Assembly (NCBI GenBank): GCA_004524425.1 | Contig: SDNN01000042.1 | Span: 1-17,870, forward strand | Length of the DNA: 17,870 nt | Reading direction: 5' to 3' | From: Promethearchaeota archaeon | GTDB lineage: Archaea; Asgardarchaeota; Lokiarchaeia; Sigynarchaeales; SOKP01 | In this document: piece by piece, positions 2,289 through 12,238 of the stretch | Numbering within the stretch: position 1 is the first letter of the stretch | Layout of the letters: each line of letters opens with the position of its first letter | Made by a program: the position numbers and the translations under genes | Notes under the pieces: model-generated | Told to the model about the DNA's origin: nothing | The model's input: the letters and a program-made list of their open reading frames with translations, nothing else | Database searches by the model: none

Positions 2289-3668
2289 TTATAGACCCAG
2301 TTCTAGAACTTTTTCTTGATTTACTTTAACTTTTTCTGGAGTTAAATCATAAAACTTCACAAAAATAATCATCCCAAGAAGCATAAATATCATTGGAATT
2401 ATGCCAAAATGAAGCTGGATCCCCCATACTGCTAGCTGCGACTGCGTAGATGCTCCCTCATTAAAACCTGTTATAGTGTGTACTACCATAAAAGTTATAG
2501 CTTGGATTAATATTGCCAATCTCCCAAAAAATTGTCGGAATCCAAAATAGATCCCTTCTTCGCGTTTACTTGTAATTACAACAGATTCATCGATAACATC
2601 AGCCAAAACGGGTGCTAACATTACCCAAAAACCACCTAAAGCTACTCCCCATATAATTAACACGGGAATAAGGATATAAAAATCTGTTATAAATGATAGT
2701 GGCAATGTTATGAAAGCAAGTAAAAAACCTGCTATCATGATAATTTTCCGATTGTTATCTGTTTTCTGGGCAAGTTTAACCCATATTGGAGTAGAAATTA
2801 TTGCTCCTATAAGAAAACTGGCCATCATGAAAATTATGGCATTCGCTTCCAATTCAAATACAAATCTTGTGATGTATGGAATAGAAGTTTGAACACATAT
2901 AACCAAGCTTTGGTATAATGTATAAAAAATGATGATTATTACAAAATTCTTTTGCTTTAATGCAATTCTTAAGGAACTAAAGAAGGAGACTCGTTCTTTT
3001 TTATCAAATCTTGCTAGATATCGATCAATGATTTCTTGATCTTCTCGACAACCGGGAATCGACAGAGCTAATAAAACAAGACCAATGAGGATCATCACCC
3101 CAGCTTGGATAATATATGTGCGTATTTCTCCGAATGTGATAAAAAGTGGTGGAAGTACCCCTCCAGCGACAATTCCTAAGATTCCTATGGGGGTTGCTAT
3201 AGCATTTGCTGTTCTGCGTTCTTCAACTGATCTAAACTTATCTGGAAAAAGAGAAGAAAAACTCACAAAGAAAAGTGAGTTGAAGGTATCAAATAAACAA
3301 GTAGCAAATACAAGCCATGCAAATAGTATCCAAGCTCCTGAAACTGGATCAACATTGGGAGGAGTAAATATCAAAATATAACTTATTACCCAGACAGCAC
3401 CTCCTAACATGATCCAAGGAAATCTTCTTCCCCATTTTTTAGTGAATTTAAAAGGGCGATCAGTTAAATAACCAACGAGAGGGTCATTTACGGCGTTATA
3501 AATTGCGAAAATAATATAACCTAATCCTACCAACAACACATTTAATCCAATTTCACTCTCATAATAGTAAAAACCAAAGGCAGTGAAAGCCATATCAATG
3601 AACATGCTGAGTGCTTTAGCAGATCCGTATGAAGCCATGCTTTTTTTCGAGTGTTTAATACTTTCCAT
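2289..3668 (-). CDS. GPH-family (MelB-type) sugar:cation symporter
   Basis: 459 residues with about twelve hydrophobic spans. The signature of the glycoside-pentoside-hexuronide family lies at the end of helix 2: YNAVNDPLVGYLTDR (57-71), followed by KKWGRRFPWI (77-86). The Asp in NDP (D62) corresponds to the region where MelB coordinates Na+/H+. The C-terminal half has ADVIDESVVITSKREEGIYFG, a second family motif with acidic and basic pairs. GPH proteins import oligosaccharides, glycosides or glucuronides with a cation across the cytoplasmic membrane. The ATG at 3668 is the first in frame and gives the usual short N-terminus. The gene is divergent from the GH172 glycosidase, and paired GH/GPH genes are a common catabolic arrangement, so this transporter probably brings in that enzyme's substrate or product. 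Substrate not predictable. Confidence 0.9.
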   Translation of the reverse strand: MESIKHSKKSMASYGSAKALSMFIDMAFTAFGFYYYESEIGLNVLLVGLGYIIFAIYNAVNDPLVGYLTDRPFKFTKKWGRRFPWIMLGGAVWVISYILIFTPPNVDPVSGAWILFAWLVFATCLFDTFNSLFFVSFSSLFPDKFRSVEERRTANAIATPIGILGIVAGGVLPPLFITFGEIRTYIIQAGVMILIGLVLLALSIPGCREDQEIIDRYLARFDKKERVSFFSSLRIALKQKNFVIIIIFYTLYQSLVICVQTSIPYITRFVFELEANAIIFMMASFLIGAIISTPIWVKLAQKTDNNRKIIMIAGFLLAFITLPLSFITDFYILIPVLIIWGVALGGFWVMLAPVLADVIDESVVITSKREEGIYFGFRQFFGRLAILIQAITFMVVHTITGFNEGASTQSQLAVWGIQLHFGIIPMIFMLLGMIIFVKFYDLTPEKVKVNQEKVLELGL

Positions 3669-3947: not shown

Positions 3948-5072
3948 ATGAAAATGGGTTATCATTCTTTATCAAATTTAGCGAAAATTAGAAAAAATGT
4001 AAAAAGCAATAGAATTTCGAGCTATGATAAGACAGGAGCAAATATTGATACGACCACCATGAATCCGGGAGAAAAACATGAGGTTTGTTATATTAAGGGT
4101 GCGGGATGTATAAAACATATATGGATGACAATCGCATCTGAAGAGCCTTTTTATCTGAGGGAATGTATCATTCGGATGTGGTGGGATGATGAGGAGCATC
4201 CTTCGGTGGAATGTCCTATTGGAGATTTTTTTGGAGTAGGACATTCAAAGACTGTAAACTATTGGAGTTTACCGCTCTCCATGGGACCACAAGATGGAAA
4301 GGGATTCAATTGCTGGTTCCCGATGCCTTTTTCAGAAAGTGCGCGAATTGAAGTGGATAATGAAACTCAAAATAATCTCATCTGCTATTATTATGTGGAC
4401 TATGAGGAACTTGAGCTGTTAGATTCATCTTTTGGAAGATTTCATGTACAATGGCGCCGTGAAAATCCGTGCCAGGGACGAAATTATGATAAAATTAGGG
4501 GTAGCCGTATTGATAAATGGTCAAAAAAAAACCCCACTCATGAAAACGATTACGTGATTCTTGAAGCAGAAGGGGAAGGCCATTATGTGGGCTGTCATTT
4601 GGATATGCATAATCTTTATAAGACGGAAGATCCAGACTTTCACAATTGGCCAGGCGAGGGAGACGATTATATTGAAATTGATGATGGAGATAGAATTCTC
4701 TATGGGACGGGAACAGAAGATTATTTTTGTACTTCGTGGGCGCCATGGCAATATTATTGCTCTCCATATTTTGGAATCACTTTACCCGGAGGAGAACACT
4801 TTTCGGGAAAGATCTCATATTATAGATACCATATTGAGGATCCTATCTATTTTCATAAAAATATTAAGGTTAAAATAGAGCATGGTCATGCCAATCAGAG
4901 GTCAGATGACTATTCTTCTACGGCGTATTGGTATCAAACAGAACCTCACTTGAAATTTCCTCCCCTTCTTTCTCGAGAAGAAAGATTACCAAGAGAGGAG
5001 CCCAAAGAAATACCGAGAATTAAAACAACTCCAGATGAGAAGTTCCCATTTTATAAATCCAAGGAAGAGTAA
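3948..5072 (+). CDS. GH172 (DUF2961) glycoside hydrolase
   Basis: 374 residues from ATG 3948 (372 from ATG 3954; an in-frame TTG at 3939 is less likely). The N-terminus has the DUF2961 pattern: LSNLAKIRKNVKSNRISSYD, then MNPGEKHEV...GAGCIKHIWMT, then CPIGDFFGVGH. The strongest family motif, GTGTEDYF, lies near residue 255, and its Glu is a candidate catalytic residue; it is followed by YYRYHIEDPIYF. Characterised GH172 enzymes form jelly-roll oligomers and act on fructofuranosyl or D-arabinofuranosyl linkages, so a furanosidase is the best guess, not a proof. No signal peptide is present, so it probably acts in the cytosol on imported sugar. It is divergent from a GPH transporter. A T-rich stretch follows the stop. 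Length is normal for the family. Confidence 0.85.
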   Translation: MKMGYHSLSNLAKIRKNVKSNRISSYDKTGANIDTTTMNPGEKHEVCYIKGAGCIKHIWMTIASEEPFYLRECIIRMWWDDEEHPSVECPIGDFFGVGHSKTVNYWSLPLSMGPQDGKGFNCWFPMPFSESARIEVDNETQNNLICYYYVDYEELELLDSSFGRFHVQWRRENPCQGRNYDKIRGSRIDKWSKKNPTHENDYVILEAEGEGHYVGCHLDMHNLYKTEDPDFHNWPGEGDDYIEIDDGDRILYGTGTEDYFCTSWAPWQYYCSPYFGITLPGGEHFSGKISYYRYHIEDPIYFHKNIKVKIEHGHANQRSDDYSSTAYWYQTEPHLKFPPLLSREERLPREEPKEIPRIKTTPDEKFPFYKSKEE

Positions 5073-5332: not shown

Positions 5333-6880
5333 ATAATTAGTAAATTAACTAATAAACAACTTGGATTAGTTGAGACTCCAAGCAATACCGTTGATTATAT
5401 TATTTCAAGATTAGGGAAAATCGATGAGAATCAGAAGATTTTAGATCCTTGCGTAGGTCCCGGTATTTTTGTAAAGCGTCTGCTCAAGCATGGAGTTGCA
5501 AAGGATCAAATCCATTCCATAGACATAAATCCAGAATATAAAGATAAAATAGAAAAAATGGGTGTTACATTTGAACAAGCAGATTATTTATTATCAATTT
5601 CTCCTAATTCACATAATGAATATGATTTTATAATCGGAAATCCGCCCTATTTAAATAAATCGAGTGCATATGTGAGAAAAAACAAGCAGGAACTAAAAAA
5701 GATCTATGGTAAGATAAATTCTCACGAGGTGTATTCCATGTTTATTGTCTCTAGTATTTGGCGATTGAAAAATGGAGGCAAATTAGGTTTTATTACCAGT
5801 GATTCATTCTTATCCTTAATTACGCATAAGCGCCTGCGAAAGTTCATTTTAAATAATTGCATAATAAATGAAATACTATTAGCTCCCATAAATCTATTTG
5901 ATAGTCAGAATGTTAGCACGAGTCCAGTGATATTTATCTTAACCAAGTGTATTGGTAAAGATAATGAGAACAAAAGAAAAGCGAACCTCATGAGAATCAT
6001 ACCGAGGGTGGAAAGCGAGGAAAGTTATGATAATACTAAAAAAGCAATTGAATATAAACAAGAAAAGTATTATTTATTACCTTTTAACATATTTTTCACG
6101 GATGTTGAAGAGTCCGTTATTAATCTTTTTGAACAAGCTCCGAAACTTACTGAATTCCTTCAAGGTTTTATTGGAATGCACACTCACAACAATCGTAAAT
6201 ATATTGCTGCCATAGAAGGTACCGAATTAGCTGAGATCTTCAGGAAGAGAAATGAGAATGTATCCGATCTAGATAAAATGTACAATATAATAACTGAAAA
6301 GGAGTTTTACTCCGGAAAATGGAAACCTTACTTGAAGCGAGGGGGTTCGGATCAATATTACCGGCCAGTAATGGAAGCATTAGATTGGAATGTAGAATCC
6401 ATTAAGGTTTATGATATTCCTAAAAATGTTCCTTTTGAAGAGGAGGGAATAGTAATAAGTGGAGTGAGTTCAAGATTAGCTGCTAGATACATGCCCAAGG
6501 GCTGTTATTGGGATTCCAATAAAGCAATAGGATTTATTATCAATGATAATTCAATTTCAATTGAATACGTGTTAGGCCTTTTAAACAGTTCTTTATATAA
6601 TTATCTTGCAAAGGGGATAATTAACAATACTAATAGCATTCAACTGACTGGAATTCATTCATTACCGTTTATTTTACCCGATAGGAGTACCATGGGAAAA
6701 GTAGAGAATTTAGTTAGAAAAATAATTAACAATAAAAAGAGAAATATAAATTATGATTATTTAAATGAACAAAAAGCTATAGATGAGATCATCTTTAATT
6801 ATCATGCCAAAAAATACAATTTTTCCGAGGATCTCCAAAAGAAATTAGAAAATAAATATTCTTTTTACAAATATGGTTGA
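5333..6880 (+). CDS. Solitary N6-adenine DNA methyltransferase (TaqI/Eco57I type), no canonical start
   Basis: Methylates adenine N6 in a specific DNA site using S-adenosylmethionine. The open frame runs from a TAA at 5330 to 6880 (515 codons). Motif I, DPCVGPGIF, is at residues 38-46, the acidic loop SIDINPEY is at 62-69, and catalytic motif IV NPPY is at 103-106. The C-terminal half is a TaqI-like specificity domain ending LGLLNSSLYNYL and GIHSLPFILPD. The first in-frame ATG (5558) would delete motif I, so it cannot give a working enzyme. Between 5333 and 5558 there is no ATG, GTG or TTG; the likely N-terminus is (ATA) I-S-K-L-T-N-K-Q-L-G-L-V-E-T-P. Upstream in-frame ATGs at 5309 and 5324 run into the TAA. 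Either ATA/ATT is used as start, or an ATG was lost. No restriction nuclease domain or neighbour is seen, so it may be an orphan methylase. Confidence 0.8.
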   Translation: MISKLTNKQLGLVETPSNTVDYIISRLGKIDENQKILDPCVGPGIFVKRLLKHGVAKDQIHSIDINPEYKDKIEKMGVTFEQADYLLSISPNSHNEYDFIIGNPPYLNKSSAYVRKNKQELKKIYGKINSHEVYSMFIVSSIWRLKNGGKLGFITSDSFLSLITHKRLRKFILNNCIINEILLAPINLFDSQNVSTSPVIFILTKCIGKDNENKRKANLMRIIPRVESEESYDNTKKAIEYKQEKYYLLPFNIFFTDVEESVINLFEQAPKLTEFLQGFIGMHTHNNRKYIAAIEGTELAEIFRKRNENVSDLDKMYNIITEKEFYSGKWKPYLKRGGSDQYYRPVMEALDWNVESIKVYDIPKNVPFEEEGIVISGVSSRLAARYMPKGCYWDSNKAIGFIINDNSISIEYVLGLLNSSLYNYLAKGIINNTNSIQLTGIHSLPFILPDRSTMGKVENLVRKIINNKKRNINYDYLNEQKAIDEIIFNYHAKKYNFSEDLQKKLENKYSFYKYG

Positions 6881-6949: not shown

Positions 6950-8500
6950 TTAATCGGGAGCAATTCGTTTTGGATTTCTTGTTTGAACATGAAGACATTC
7001 CTGCATCAACCTTTCAACTAATGCACATCTCTTTTCTTGAAACTTTTCATCAAACCATAGGTTATGTAATTCAAGAGGATCCTTTTTACGATCGAAAATA
7101 TCTCCATAACCCTTTATGCCTTCATAAACGGTTAATTTATGATCTCGAGTAATCAAATGCCTTAATCTACAGAAGAGAGGTCCTTTGGGGCCAACTTCCT
7201 CATCTTGTTCTATTAGGCAACAATCTCTTATATTCTTGCTAGGATCTTTTAAAACGGGAGTCATATCATAACCTTGCATGTCAGGCGGATGCTTTCTTTC
7301 AGGAATTCCTAATAAACTTAAAATTGTTTTAGGATAATCAATGGAACTTATTAAAGCGTCTGTAACTGCTGGATTTGTCACCCCTGGAACCTTCCATATC
7401 AGTGGAACTTGTAAAACTCCATTAAAAGGAGATGGTCCTTTAAAAAGCATTCCATGCTCTCCCATCAAGTCTGCATGATCACTTGTATACACAACTATCG
7501 TGTTATCAGCATAACCTAATTTTTCTACAGCAGCTAGAACTTGTCCTATACTGTCATCAAGTAAAGAGACGATGCCGTATGTATAAGCAATAAATTTTCT
7601 GGTCTCTTCTTCATTTGTTTCTCTTAACATCGCACCAGGCATGACATTTATATTATCTTTCAAAAATGGATGCTTTTGCAAGTTTTCTAAATCATCAAAA
7701 TTTTCTGGAAGCTCAATATCATCAGGCTTGTACATGTCTTTATATCTTCCTGGAGGATTGAGAGGATGGTGTGGATCTGGAAAGGAGCAATGAAGGTAAA
7801 ATGGTTTATCGCCATAATCGCCTCGAGCGTGTTTTTCGAGAAAATCAATAGTTTTTTCAACAATATAGGCATTTGGGTAAAGCTCAACCGTTAAATCACT
7901 GTCTACAAATGGTCCAAATGAAGCATCAAGGTTATTCCATCGTTTCTTCATTGTTTCGACATGCTTTGGAGATCTTTCTTCTAACCAGTCCATGTAATGA
8001 CCTGCTAAGGCGGTTCCATGACCCAGAACCATTTCAACCTCTTGGTAATGATAATATGGAATTGGAAAATTCTCACCAGTGGGAGTCCAGACATCATCAT
8101 CAGGAAATATCCAGTCATAGTAACTTTCAGCAGATTTTTTTTCCTTTATTCGATAGGGCGGAGTATCGTATTGATAATGGAATTTACCAATACCTGCCGT
8201 ACGCCAACCCTTATTAACGAGAGTTTGAGTAATTGTTGGAAGGCTCTCATCTAATAACATCCCGTTGCTTCTAACACCATGTACATTAGGATATAGACCA
8301 GTCAAAAGAGTTGCCCTATTTGGCATGCACATTGGATTCGTACAGAAAGCATTAGTAAACCTTACTCCTTCGCTTGCGAATCGGTCAAGGTTAGGTGTTT
8401 TTAAAATTTTATGTCCCGAGCAACTCATATGGTCCGCTCGATGCTGATCGGACATTATAAATAAAACATTCATTTTTTCACTCATGTGTATCAAAACCAT
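6950..8500 (-). CDS. Type I (formylglycine-dependent) sulfatase
   Basis: 516 residues from ATG 8500. In-frame ATGs at 8485 and 8473 are equally possible; the last gives the family-typical start MNVLFIMSDQHRAD. The active-site signature is C58-M-P-N-R62-A-T-L-L-T-G68, matching C-x-P-x-R-x4-T-G exactly. Cys58 should be converted to formylglycine. Metal and substrate residues are present: D18-Q19, K106 and H109 (GKFHY), H244 (DPHHP), D341-H342 (TSDHADLMGEHG) and K354. The C-terminal FDRKKDPLELHNLW is normal for the family. Such enzymes hydrolyse sulfate esters of sugars, choline or aryl groups; related phosphonate monoester hydrolases share the fold. No signal peptide is seen, so it is probably cytosolic. 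No maturase (FGE or anSME) lies in the window. It is divergent from the RHH regulator and shares its operator-rich spacer. Confidence 0.9.
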   Translation of the reverse strand: MVLIHMSEKMNVLFIMSDQHRADHMSCSGHKILKTPNLDRFASEGVRFTNAFCTNPMCMPNRATLLTGLYPNVHGVRSNGMLLDESLPTITQTLVNKGWRTAGIGKFHYQYDTPPYRIKEKKSAESYYDWIFPDDDVWTPTGENFPIPYYHYQEVEMVLGHGTALAGHYMDWLEERSPKHVETMKKRWNNLDASFGPFVDSDLTVELYPNAYIVEKTIDFLEKHARGDYGDKPFYLHCSFPDPHHPLNPPGRYKDMYKPDDIELPENFDDLENLQKHPFLKDNINVMPGAMLRETNEEETRKFIAYTYGIVSLLDDSIGQVLAAVEKLGYADNTIVVYTSDHADLMGEHGMLFKGPSPFNGVLQVPLIWKVPGVTNPAVTDALISSIDYPKTILSLLGIPERKHPPDMQGYDMTPVLKDPSKNIRDCCLIEQDEEVGPKGPLFCRLRHLITRDHKLTVYEGIKGYGDIFDRKKDPLELHNLWFDEKFQEKRCALVERLMQECLHVQTRNPKRIAPD

Positions 8501-8550
8501 TTATTATTACTTGCCTTTGAGTTAAATTTTAGTAAAATTATCATTAGTAA

Positions 8551-8587
8551 TTATTTATGTGATGGAATATATTCTTTAATATCACAT
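8551..8587. promoter_or_regulatory. Inverted repeat near the sulfatase promoter
   Basis: A perfect 7-bp inverted repeat, ATGTGAT (8557-8563) and ATCACAT (8581-8587), encloses 17 bp, inside which GAATATATTC (8565-8574) is a perfect 10-bp palindrome. The left arm touches a minus-strand TATA-like ATAAATAA (8551-8558) that could serve the sulfatase. The half-sites match those of the 21-bp operator next to it. Confidence 0.45.
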
Positions 8588-8607
8588 TGTAATAGCATGT
8601 ATCACAA
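8587..8607. promoter_or_regulatory. Candidate RHH operator, copy 1
   Basis: A 21-bp imperfect dyad of form TTGTRATA-N5-TATYACAA. Here the left arm is TTGTAATA (8587-8594) and the right arm TATCACAA (8600-8607). It is followed at once by a TATA-like AAATATAAAT (8606-8615), placed to drive the RHH gene at 8649. A bound repressor would block TBP/TFB. Copy 2 at 9303-9323 is identical at 19 of 21 positions. Confidence 0.65.
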
Positions 8608-8648
8608 AATATAAATAATTTCTTTTTATTATAATAAATTGAATAAAG

Positions 8649-9242
8649 ATGTCTAAAATGAATATTGATAAGAAAAAATCTAGTAAACAATCACGTATCA
8701 TGAGTCTTCGAATGGATGAGGAAACTTATCAAAAATTAAGTAAAATTTCGCAAGAGAATAATATTAAGAAAAGTGAGCTCTTAAGGAATTCATTCAATGA
8801 ATGGATTAATATTAAAAAAATTCTCCTAAAATCAGATAGCATGATTGTAGGTAAGGACTTTTTAAAGGGCATTTTTAATTTCGCAGATGAAGAAGGTATT
8901 ATCAATCTAGGAAAGAATATTGCTGAAATTTGGATAAATGAATTCAACATACATTTAATTGACACCCAAGCGAAGAAAGATTTTAATTCAATGCTTACTG
9001 TATTTACCGAAGGAATTGGACCTAATGAAGCAAACTGGTTTGATAAAATAAATTTTCGGAAAATTGCTGATAATAAAATTCTTATTTATGGAATACACTC
9101 TCTCAATAAGAATTTTTCACTATTCTTTAAGTCATTTTTGGAACATCTATTGGCTACACAGGTCGGTTCTATTTTAATTCAAGAATCTAGCAATATTTCT
9201 GACACAACTATAAGATTAGAATTTAAATTAACTGAGAAATAA
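8649..9242 (+). CDS. Ribbon-helix-helix transcriptional regulator with C-terminal domain
   Basis: 197 residues. A lysine-rich start is followed by a ribbon-helix-helix DNA-binding unit at about 15-57: a strand SRIMSLRMD, helix A EETYQKLSKISQEN, then IKKSELLRNSFNEWINI as helix B. RHH proteins bind DNA as dimers through the paired strand in the major groove. The remaining ~135 residues form an alpha/beta domain I do not recognise (ending IHSLNKNFSLFFKSFLEHLL and a terminal strand TIRLEFKL), and it could bind an effector. The gene lies between the divergent sulfatase and the downstream GPH transporter. A shared 21-bp dyad lies before this gene and before the transporter, so autoregulation and control of sugar uptake are likely but inferred. 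The ATG at 8649 has no ribosome site; a short leader is expected. Confidence 0.78.
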   Translation: MSKMNIDKKKSSKQSRIMSLRMDEETYQKLSKISQENNIKKSELLRNSFNEWINIKKILLKSDSMIVGKDFLKGIFNFADEEGIINLGKNIAEIWINEFNIHLIDTQAKKDFNSMLTVFTEGIGPNEANWFDKINFRKIADNKILIYGIHSLNKNFSLFFKSFLEHLLATQVGSILIQESSNISDTTIRLEFKLTEK

Positions 9243-9302
9243 CAAAAGGTTTTCGAATTATTCATCAAAACTTCTTATTGATAGACTTGAAGTAATAATA
9301 CT

Positions 9303-9323
9303 TTGTAATAAAATGTATCACAA
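9303..9323. promoter_or_regulatory. Candidate RHH operator, copy 2
   Basis: Left arm TTGTAATA (9303-9310), spacer AAATG, right arm TATCACAA (9316-9323). It differs from copy 1 only at two spacer bases (GC versus AA). A TATA-like TTTATATATT (9324-9333) follows directly, the same geometry as copy 1. It lies about 100 bp before the GPH transporter start. Confidence 0.65.
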
Positions 9324-9421
9324 TTTATATATTGGATTTCATTCAATAGTTTATTTAACATGATTAAAAACTTTAGATTTCAATTAAAAATTTCAACAAA
9401 AAATAAAAAAAATGAGGTAAA
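9324..9421 (+). promoter_or_regulatory. Promoter, leader and ribosome site of transporter 2
   Basis: TATA-like box at 9324-9333; transcription would start near 9353, leaving a leader of about 70 nt. GAGGT (9414-9418) lies 3 nt before the ATG at 9422 and is the ribosome site. It is embedded in ATG-AGG-TAA (9412-9420), a two-codon open frame that overlaps the site. Confidence 0.5.
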
Positions 9422-10834
9422 ATGAGCGAAAAACCATTAAAATTTAAGGAAAAATTTTTATTTGGCATCTCAGCTATTCCAGATCAATTGACCTATCAAT
9501 TATTTCAATTCCTAGTTTTCACCTATTATTTCACCGTTGTGAAATTGCCATTGGTTTTAATCATGACCGGATATATCATATGGGGCATATGGAATTCTGT
9601 AAACGATCCACTTGTAGGGGCATTATCGGAGAAGACAAAACACAAGAAAAGATGGGGTAAAAGAAGATTTTATATTCTCATTTCTATTATACCATTATCA
9701 TTTTTAATGATATTATTGTTTTATGTGCCCTTTGATACTAGCGACAAGCTTGTTGAATTTGTCTATTTTCTAATAGTAATCATATCATTCGAATTTGTCT
9801 ACAGCATGTTTAACGTCAATATGAACGCTATTTTTCCAGATCAATTTCCAACTGAAAAAAAAAGAGCAAGCATCCAAATTTTCAGAAACCTTACATTTGT
9901 TTTAGCCTTAATATTAGGTTCACTCATTCCTGCGTTAGTTATATCTGATCTTGTTCCTGACAATGAAGCAGCAATACCTCGCATTAAGGGCGAATACTTG
10001 ACAACTGGCATTATAGTAGCTATAATAACTCTTTTAGCAGCTATTCCTTTTGCTTTATGGGGTGTTAAAGAAAAAGAAGAAACAATTGAGGATTTTAATA
10101 AAAGGCCATCTATTTTTCAATCGTTTAAATTGACTTTGTCAAATAAAACTTTCTTAAAATTTACACTCGCAAATACGATGGTTTGGTATTGCTTTACAAT
10201 CCTTCCATTAGTAATGCCTATATATGCCGAACATGTTCTTAATGTGTCAAAAGGAGCCATGTTAGTAGGATTGAGTTTAATGTTAGCGTTCGTTGTTGCT
10301 GCCCTTTCCTTCCCGATCCATAGAAAAATTGGACTCAAAATAGGAATAAGAAATGCCATGATCTTGAATTTGAGTCTCTTTATTGTCATATTAATACCTT
10401 ATTTCTTAATGTTCGGTGAAGAGCACCAAATCTTATTCATGATAACTACCGCATGTGTAGGTTTTCCTATAGGTGGTTCAATGTTTTACATAGATCTCCT
10501 ACATTCTGATGTCATCGATGAAGATGCGCTTAAATGTGGAATTAGAAGAGGGGCTAGCTTCTATGGCGTCATGTTATTTATTCAGAGATCTGCAGTCATA
10601 TTGGTAATCATAACAGTGGCATTGATGTTCGGAAACATGGGTTGGGAACAAGAATATAATCCAGTACCAGAAGACCCAGCTTTAGTTGTTCTTGGTTTGA
10701 AATCATTGATGTTCATATTTCCCGCCATAGCTCTCACAATAGCAATACTTCTCCTCAAATCATATAACCTACATGGTGAAAAACTGCAAAAAGTAAGACA
10801 AGAAATAGAAAAACATCCAGAATTAAGGAAATAA
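9422..10834 (+). CDS. GPH-family (MelB-type) sugar:cation symporter, second copy
   Basis: 470 residues with about twelve hydrophobic spans. The GPH signature is at the same residue positions as in the other transporter: WNSVNDPLVGALSEKT (57-72), then KKRWGKRRFYI. D62 in NDP is the expected cation-site region. The later motif reads SDVIDEDALKCGIRRGASFYG. The two transporters are clearly diverged paralogues with different loops, so they may take different sugars. This copy has a longer periplasmic-type loop (VPDNEAAIPRIKGEYLTTG) between spans 5 and 6. GAGGT before the ATG supports the start. The upstream dyad shared with the RHH gene suggests control by that regulator. A T9 run (10846-10854) follows the stop. 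Confidence 0.9.
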   Translation: MSEKPLKFKEKFLFGISAIPDQLTYQLFQFLVFTYYFTVVKLPLVLIMTGYIIWGIWNSVNDPLVGALSEKTKHKKRWGKRRFYILISIIPLSFLMILLFYVPFDTSDKLVEFVYFLIVIISFEFVYSMFNVNMNAIFPDQFPTEKKRASIQIFRNLTFVLALILGSLIPALVISDLVPDNEAAIPRIKGEYLTTGIIVAIITLLAAIPFALWGVKEKEETIEDFNKRPSIFQSFKLTLSNKTFLKFTLANTMVWYCFTILPLVMPIYAEHVLNVSKGAMLVGLSLMLAFVVAALSFPIHRKIGLKIGIRNAMILNLSLFIVILIPYFLMFGEEHQILFMITTACVGFPIGGSMFYIDLLHSDVIDEDALKCGIRRGASFYGVMLFIQRSAVILVIITVALMFGNMGWEQEYNPVPEDPALVVLGLKSLMFIFPAIALTIAILLLKSYNLHGEKLQKVRQEIEKHPELRK

Positions 10835-10845
10835 TAAATTTTTAA

Positions 10846-10854
10846 TTTTTTTTT
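10846..10854 (+). terminator. U-tract terminator after transporter 2
   Basis: A T9 run 12 bp after the transporter stop, preceded by AATTTTTAA. No hairpin is needed in archaea. Confidence 0.45.
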
Positions 10855-10972
10855 CTATTCATTTTAAAATTGATTGGATTAATAAAATTTAATTGAAAAT
10901 ATTTAATTCTACTTTTTCATTGATAATTTTTAAGAATACTTCTACTAATATTTCAATTATTTTTCTTAGAAA

Positions 10973-12238
10973 ATGGGTCTAAAAATCTTATTAGTAAACC
11001 CAAACATGATGCAAAGTCCACCTGTCATTCCGATAGGTTTAGAATATTTGGCAACATCATTGGAGAAATATGAACACGATGTGGTATTATTGGATTTATG
11101 TTTTAATCCTTCTCCCATAGAGGAATTGCGTTATACCTTAATGAAAGATAAATTTGACATAGTCGGCCTCTCTATACGAAATATTGATTCATGTATTTAT
11201 TTTAATAACGATTTTTATTTATCAGAATTTAAAGAATTAATAGAAGAAATAAAGAATTACAATATACCTATTATTTTAGGCGGTTCAGGTTTTTCTGCCA
11301 TGCCCAATGAAATCCTGGAATATTTTCAAGCAGATTATGGCATAATTGGCCCTGCAGAGAACGCATTTCATAAATTTTTAGTTTTATGGAAAAAAAATGA
11401 ATTAAAAAGGAATATAATAAATGGTTGGAATTATGGTATAGACACTGCGGCTCTTCCCATAAGGGGAAAAGAAATAGATTACCAAAAATACATGGATAAA
11501 GACGGAATTATAGGTTTTACAACTCATAGTGGATGTCAAAATCAGTGTCCTTATTGTATTGAAGCGAATACTAAAGTTACATTAAAGAAAATAGCTAATA
11601 TCATTAAGGAAATTGAAGGTTTAGTCAATCAAGGCTATACTCATTTTCACTTATGTGATAGTGAATTCAATTCGGATCTTAAATATAGCATTGAATTTTG
11701 CAAACAATTAGCTCAAAAATCTCTACCAATGAAATGGACATTATATATGAAACCATTTCCGTATAATGAACAACTTTTTCAACTATTAAAAGACTCTAAT
11801 GCATATTTAATTACCCTCTCAGTCGATAGTGATAAAAGAATACAAAAGCAAAATAATTATTCTCAGAATGATTTGGCTAAAATTATTGATTATAGCAAAA
11901 AACAAGGAATTGATATAGCAATTGACTTATTGACAGGTTATCCACATGAGCCTATAGAATCTACAAGAAATATGTTGGAGTTTTTCAGAAAAACACGTCC
12001 CAAGACCGTGGGAATAAGTTTCTATTTTCGTATTTATAGCAATACTTCTTTAGCAACATTGATTAAGGCTGATAAGGCATTGCAAAAGAGATTATCAAGA
12101 CCATATACTGATAAGGAAGATTTTTTAGAACCAATTTTCTATAATCACCTCACACGAGAAATATTAGAAGATTTGATTGCAGTTGATGATCTTTTCCGCA
12201 TAGCTGGGCTTGAAGCAGGAGTTAATTACCAATTATGA
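10973..12238 (+). CDS. B12-binding-domain radical SAM protein
   Basis: 421 residues. The N-terminal ~140 residues form a Rossmann-like cobalamin-binding domain (KILLVNPNMM, PIGLEYLATSLEKYEHDVVLLD, IVGLSIRNID, IPIILGGSGFS, ADYGIIGPAENAF), without the His of the DxHxxG motif, so base-off His ligation is unlikely. The radical SAM core starts at about 180 with the iron-sulfur motif C188-x3-C192-x2-C195 (SGCQNQCPYC), followed by HFHLCDSEFN and LITLSVDSD. The cluster cleaves S-adenosylmethionine to start radical chemistry; many members are methylases or act on lipids or secondary metabolites. The substrate is unknown. It has no SPASM-type extra cysteine cluster, so it is not an anaerobic sulfatase maturase. 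It appears to stand alone, 138 bp after the transporter. Confidence 0.87.
   Translation: MGLKILLVNPNMMQSPPVIPIGLEYLATSLEKYEHDVVLLDLCFNPSPIEELRYTLMKDKFDIVGLSIRNIDSCIYFNNDFYLSEFKELIEEIKNYNIPIILGGSGFSAMPNEILEYFQADYGIIGPAENAFHKFLVLWKKNELKRNIINGWNYGIDTAALPIRGKEIDYQKYMDKDGIIGFTTHSGCQNQCPYCIEANTKVTLKKIANIIKEIEGLVNQGYTHFHLCDSEFNSDLKYSIEFCKQLAQKSLPMKWTLYMKPFPYNEQLFQLLKDSNAYLITLSVDSDKRIQKQNNYSQNDLAKIIDYSKKQGIDIAIDLLTGYPHEPIESTRNMLEFFRKTRPKTVGISFYFRIYSNTSLATLIKADKALQKRLSRPYTDKEDFLEPIFYNHLTREILEDLIAVDDLFRIAGLEAGVNYQL

Follow-up and report, generated by a model that had tools for sequence, protein, structure and literature searches.

The ribbon-helix-helix (RHH) proteins CopG, Arc, MetJ, and NikR are autoregulating repressors with palindromic or tandem boxes in their own promoters, and NikR additionally has a ligand-binding, ACT-like C-terminal domain. 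The locus described here, on a 17,870-nucleotide stretch of contig SDNN01000042.1 from a Loki-type archaeon (hereafter, the window), resembles these systems in its RHH protein and its own-promoter boxes, but differs from them in its predicted V4R/TRAPP-like sensor and its archaeal promoter. The gene order is a sulfatase (minus strand), a 197-amino-acid protein that matches RHH weakly, and a transporter of the MFS_2/GPH type; a 21-bp dyad occurs twice, once before the RHH gene and once before the transporter gene (Table 1). We consider it probable that the two copies are operators of this protein, an RHH plus V4R/TRAPP-like one-component regulator, which would block both promoters until relieved by a ligand.

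The nearest archaeal analog is MsvR, a methanogen-specific V4R domain regulator; one homolog prevents TBP/TFB binding at its own promoter, and the box of another likely blocks the B recognition element (BRE) (PMC3729527). Like MsvR, the protein in the window would be a one-component regulator of an archaeon, with a predicted V4R-type domain; it has a conserved motif (a different one) before its own gene at the presumed BRE/TATA, and would have a further target gene beside its own (for MsvR, fpaA, in one species). MsvR has a helix-turn-helix domain and three conserved V4R cysteines (PMC3729527), whereas the DNA-binding domain here is RHH and the predicted sensor domain has zero or one cysteine. 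The TRAPPC3/V4R proteins of Asgard archaea, which share the superfamily fold of the predicted sensor, are described as likely ligand binders (PMC10933270); the passages of that paper examined do not present them as DNA-binding proteins, and in its main text the terms "ribbon" and "DNA-binding" appear zero times each. The RHH-HisKA-REC proteins of Lokiarchaeum join an Arc-type RHH to signaling domains (PMC5847659), but these are two-component domains, whereas the predicted sensor here is V4R-like. No Asgard regulator-operator pair is described in the titles and abstracts of the literature searched, nor did the literature searched yield the predicted combination of an RHH with a V4R/TRAPP-like domain, V4R together with ribbon-helix-helix leading to one paper whose passages concern other architectures. 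We regard the protein as a local one-component regulator of a known kind, whose pairing of domains was not encountered in that literature.

The first-pass annotation of the window held that the two copies share 19 of their 21 bases, that both fit TTGTRATA-N5-TATYACAA, and that each is followed at once by a TATA-like box. All of this was confirmed: the copies differ only at positions 9–10 (GC vs. AA), neither has a mismatch to the pattern, and the boxes TATAAATA and TTTATATA lie directly 3′ of the first and second copy, respectively. The best 21-mer shared by the two spacers is this 19/21 match, a value reached by 0 of 2,000 dinucleotide-shuffled spacer pairs (maximum, 18). The copies are part of a 40-nt repeat (8577–8616 and 9293–9332; 80% identical), the longest of six direct-repeat families within positions 8000–11000, which extends beyond the 21-mer to cover ten upstream bases on one side and the TATA box on the other.

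Three loci were obtained from genome contigs: L001 (Lokiarchaeia ABR15), L002 (Lokiarchaeota HM4_B22), and L003 (Lokiarchaeota LW40_45). The order sulfatase, RHH, transporter is kept in the first two, where the sites, whose absence from relatives with this gene order the earlier annotation would have counted against its reading, are conserved, exactly in L001 and in degenerate form in L002. In L001 the exact dyad lies upstream of both the RHH gene (3325–3345) and the transporter gene (4040–4060), at 41 and 100 bp from the open reading frames (41 and 98 bp in the window); in L002, the sites ATGTAGTTATATGTATCACAA before the RHH gene (2222–2242) and TTGTATTAAAAGATACCACAA before the transporter gene (2932–2952) align to those of the window. 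In L003 the RHH gene is located among sulfatase genes, with neighbors unlike those of the window, and has an exact site 219 bp and a two-mismatch site 15 bp before it. A more distant locus, L059 (genome G119), encodes an RHH protein of 26% identity and has two sites upstream of its gene. Because the sites stay with the RHH gene while its neighbors change, the earlier proposal that the sites are operators of this protein is well supported in its positional part, by conserved position, by the restriction of the exact dyad in genome G001 to this locus (see below), and by recurrence at RHH genes with other neighbors; binding itself is predicted.

Ten sites, picked by eye and by matrix, were aligned. 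Complementarity of the outer arms amounts to 63 of 80 pairs, which 1 of 5,000 column-order shuffles equaled, and a 10-bp direct repeat matches at 59 of 100 positions, equaled by 8 of 5,000. In the center, the bases A11 (10/10), T12 (9/10), and G13 (8/10) are kept, and only positions 9–10 are without a majority base. The site is therefore a dyad, as first described, but the N5 spacer of that description is too loose: two spacer bases are free rather than five, and a direct repeat of 10 bp is present in the site as well. A TATA-like box is found directly 3′ of 7 of the 10 sites, the exceptions being the second site of L003 and both sites of L059.

Rarity was assessed in 227 genomes of the phylum, with the reversed pattern as control; the family profile matches in 41 of them at E 0.001, many matches being weak. 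Seven of the genomes contain the exact dyad, at 8 places in total (control, 5 places): two in G001 and one in G003, all at a family gene, and five elsewhere. Both matches in G001 fall at the RHH locus (L001); G002 has no exact dyad. We take the five outside matches, three inside open reading frames (L052, L054, L055) and two between them (L051, L053), as chance; their genomes have no match to the family at E 0.001. A refined pattern, TTGTMATA-N2-ATGTATCACAA (TTGTMATANNATGTATCACAA), gives 5 matches with at most one mismatch (control, 2), of which 4 are at family genes (two in G001, one each in G003 and G119), with the restriction that the G119 match is not independent, since the pattern was refined after L059 had been seen; a matrix trained on the window and L001 alone also found L059, among loci selected for family genes. 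The fifth match, in G080 (L074:1501–1521), was likewise set aside as chance; this genome has no family gene at E 0.001, and the match lies between minus-strand reading frames (451–1497 and 1599–2285) and inside a 103-amino-acid frame on the opposite strand. The dyad could alternatively belong to another, e.g., global, regulator, its nearness to the RHH gene being incidental, as might be suggested by the predicted nature of the binding and by the want of a clear match in L002 and most distant relatives. We hold this to be improbable, given that four of the five refined matches are at family genes, that the RHH gene stays constant in L003 and L059 while the neighbors differ, and that a global regulator would be expected to leave many sites, whereas the exact sites in G001 are the two at this locus.

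Several observations weigh against the operators as proposed here. In the window, the loose dyad (at most three mismatches) is about as frequent as expected by chance, with 2 observed and 1.33 expected (77 of 200 shuffles have at least 2), and with at most two mismatches, the counts in relatives are close to those of the control (pattern/control: G001, 29/28; G002, 39/28; G003, 27/47; G154, 20/26; G156, 36/31). The spacer-to-spacer comparison gives 18/21 in L001, reached by 29 of 2,000 shuffles, and 16/21 in L002, reached by 1,298 of 2,000. Finally, according to PMC3729527, TBP recruitment was in 2013 the one mechanism of archaeal activation to have been clearly defined, a point which would favor an activator. 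Because loose matches are at chance level, the signal rests on the exact and refined matches together with conserved position; a wide regulon was rejected, and no distant targets are claimed. A random scatter across the genome, which the first-pass annotation would have counted against the operators, is thus found in the relatives for loose matches but not for exact or refined ones. That the repeats reflect chance, or an AT-rich promoter repeat, mobile element, or RNA element with no regulator involved, would fit the loose matches of two to three mismatches and the ease with which AT-rich spacers, such as those of L002, yield repeats of this kind; we consider it very unlikely, as the shuffled spacer pairs never reached 19/21, L001 keeps both position and sequence, the site is rare in the genomes searched, and Rfam gave no match at gathering scores. 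The site is also probably outside the RNA it precedes, being upstream of the TATA-like box.

For the ligand-relieved block that we favor, dimers of the RHH protein would bind the 21-bp site through its inverted arms TTGTNATA and TATCACAA, with TGT boxes 10 bp apart. Bound at the upstream edge of BRE/TATA in its own and the transporter promoter, the protein would exclude TBP/TFB, and binding of a small molecule, probably one related to the compound imported, to the sensor domain would cause it to release the DNA, allowing expression of both the regulator and the transporter gene. Autorepression together with repression of the transporter is favored because the site abuts the presumed BRE/TATA and because of the MsvR analog. 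The same protein at the same operators could instead act as an activator, recruiting TBP/TFB to both promoters with the ligand as co-activator; the position of 7 of the 10 sites immediately 5′ of the TATA-like box would suit this mode, as would the archaeal precedent for activation. It is a possible alternative to which we give limited credence: the right arm overlaps the expected BRE, MsvR represses, and the second L003 site, which lies ∼175 bp 3′ of the presumed TATA box, suits a block. Between repression and activation as such, repression is the likelier, though by no means overwhelmingly so. The locus thus offers a concrete candidate for a regulator-operator pair: the 21-mer is predicted, the geometry of the promoters is given, and the regulon would comprise two or three genes, all of it testable with the purified protein alone.

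Table 1. Coordinates of the predicted operators, promoter elements, and genes at the RHH locus of the window.
Feature	Coordinates	Strand	Details
Operator 1 (predicted), TTGTAATAGCATGTATCACAA	8587–8607	+	41 bp to RHH start codon
Operator 2 (predicted), TTGTAATAAAATGTATCACAA	9303–9323	+	98 bp to transporter start codon
Upstream extension of operator 1, TAATATCACA	8577–8586	+	Possible third 10-bp box; within 40-nt repeat; partly conserved; weak
Upstream extension of operator 2, TAATAATACT	9293–9302	+	Within 40-nt repeat; weak
TATA-like box of RHH gene, TATAAATA	8610–8617	+	Sequence aligns with TTTAAATA in L001; putative promoter use
TATA-like box of transporter gene, TTTATATA	9324–9331	+	Sequence aligns with TTTATA in L001 and L002; putative promoter use
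Regulator gene, 197 amino acids	8649–9242	+	RHH at residues ∼15–56; predicted V4R/TRAPP/H-NOX-like fold at residues ∼56–197
MFS_2/GPH-type transporter, 470 amino acids	9422–10834	+	PF13347, E = 1.5e-46
Divergent sulfatase	6950–8485	−	PF00884, E = 9.7e-45

Apart from the window protein itself, the protein database contains 30 relatives of the regulator, and a wider profile search gave 49 proteins in total; those named by organism (four and seven, respectively) are all from Promethearchaeota/Lokiarchaeota/Promethearchaeati. The RHH assignment of the window protein is weak when taken singly (RHH_3, 17.7 bits, under the 21.6 cut-off), and RHH_1 matches 33 of the 49 members, with E values no higher than 1 (lowest, 1.9e-05); a PDB sequence search gave a single weak match, to 2kel_A (E 0.25), which covers residues in the RHH region. 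The C-terminal domain, which the first-pass annotation did not recognize, is predicted to be a ligand sensor, its predicted fold being that of the V4R/TRAPP/H-NOX-like superfamily, and has an invariant Gly148-x-His150; no V4R, TRAPP, or HNOB match is among the 25 Pfam families listed, out of 32, for the 49 members. The aromatic sensors DmpR, MopR, and PoxR, bacterial phenol-responsive sigma-54 activators, have a V4R domain as well, from which the domain here differs by having no conserved cysteines and by an identity of 6–7%. The H-NOX heme motif is YxSxR; it is absent from the C-terminal domain in all 49 members, and heme sensing was rejected on this ground. Redox sensing via cysteines in the manner of MsvR was also rejected, there being none in the sensor domain of 44 members and one in the remaining 5. 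The best NCBIfam match, to aCcr1, falls far short of its cut-off (22.2 vs. 60 bits), and among viral contigs, 95 stretches matched a pattern but none encodes a relative.

The surroundings of the RHH relatives vary. In G156 and G154, they are divergent from MFS transporters. At L056, the site outscores 99.5% of 400 random windows by matrix and is directed at the transporter, with TATTTATATT coming after it; shared-spacer sites in L058 and L057 were discarded, and L056 alone was counted, because their scores are common in random windows (reached by 15.75% and 40.5% of 400, respectively). At L059 (1424–2752), the relative is divergent from a gene for a B12-binding (corrinoid-type) protein, with both site copies in the spacer. 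In LW40_45 (L003:3680–13823), six sulfatase-like genes, and a fragment at the locus edge, surround the RHH gene. At L072:4281–7751 and L073:6397–9986, the relatives adjoin genes resembling, by eye, GH4 glycosidases and UroD-type methyltransferases.

In a paralogous RHH clade, a different dyad, TGTTWTCATWTGAWAACA, lies ∼100 bp upstream of the clade's own gene. It is present with at most one mismatch in 10 of 16 genes and with at most two in 11 (L020–L022, L024–L027, L061, L064, L065, L070), compared to 2 and 3 of 2,000 random 180-bp windows; the 16 genes are not fully independent, as the spacers tested are those from which the pattern was written, and the genomes that contribute the genes are related. 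It was not found in the other five (L062, both genes of L063, L066, L069). The dyad adjoins a TATTTAAA- or TATATAAA-like box, and a ATCGACAACTTTATA-like element, identified by eye, then follows in most cases. We lean, if only slightly, toward the view that in Promethearchaeota a distinct family of one-component regulators has expanded, combining an RHH domain with a cysteine-poor sensor of the TRAPP/V4R fold, with subfamily-specific operators in the regulators' own promoters and, in some subfamilies, at a neighboring transporter. The fold known from eukaryotic TRAPP vesicle tethering would then sense ligands for ordinary gene switches. The paralogous clade, with its different conserved dyad, offers a natural test of specificity change in RHH proteins.

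The remaining genes of the window supply context. The transporter scores 159.3 bits against PF13347 (MFS_2; cut-off, 27), and 151.3 bits against TIGR00792 (GPH sugar:cation symporters), below the cut-off of 231.35. The sulfatase frame is listed to position 8500, with the start MSEKMN, common to L001 and L002, at 8485, and its placement is the same in both loci and the window. This gene may or may not be a further target: a third operator was rejected, as only a minus-strand half-site, ATCACA-TAAATAAT (8550–8563, by eye), is present, and it is not clearly conserved in L001 or L002. An Eco57I-type DNA methylase-like gene is located at 5558–6880, and a relative of it adjoins the sulfatase in L001 too. 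A second MFS_2/GPH-type transporter (2289–3668), adjoining a DUF2961 gene, has no dyad at up to three mismatches. Lastly, a 27-bp tandem repeat of two copies is present 3′ of the first transporter (10888–10941).
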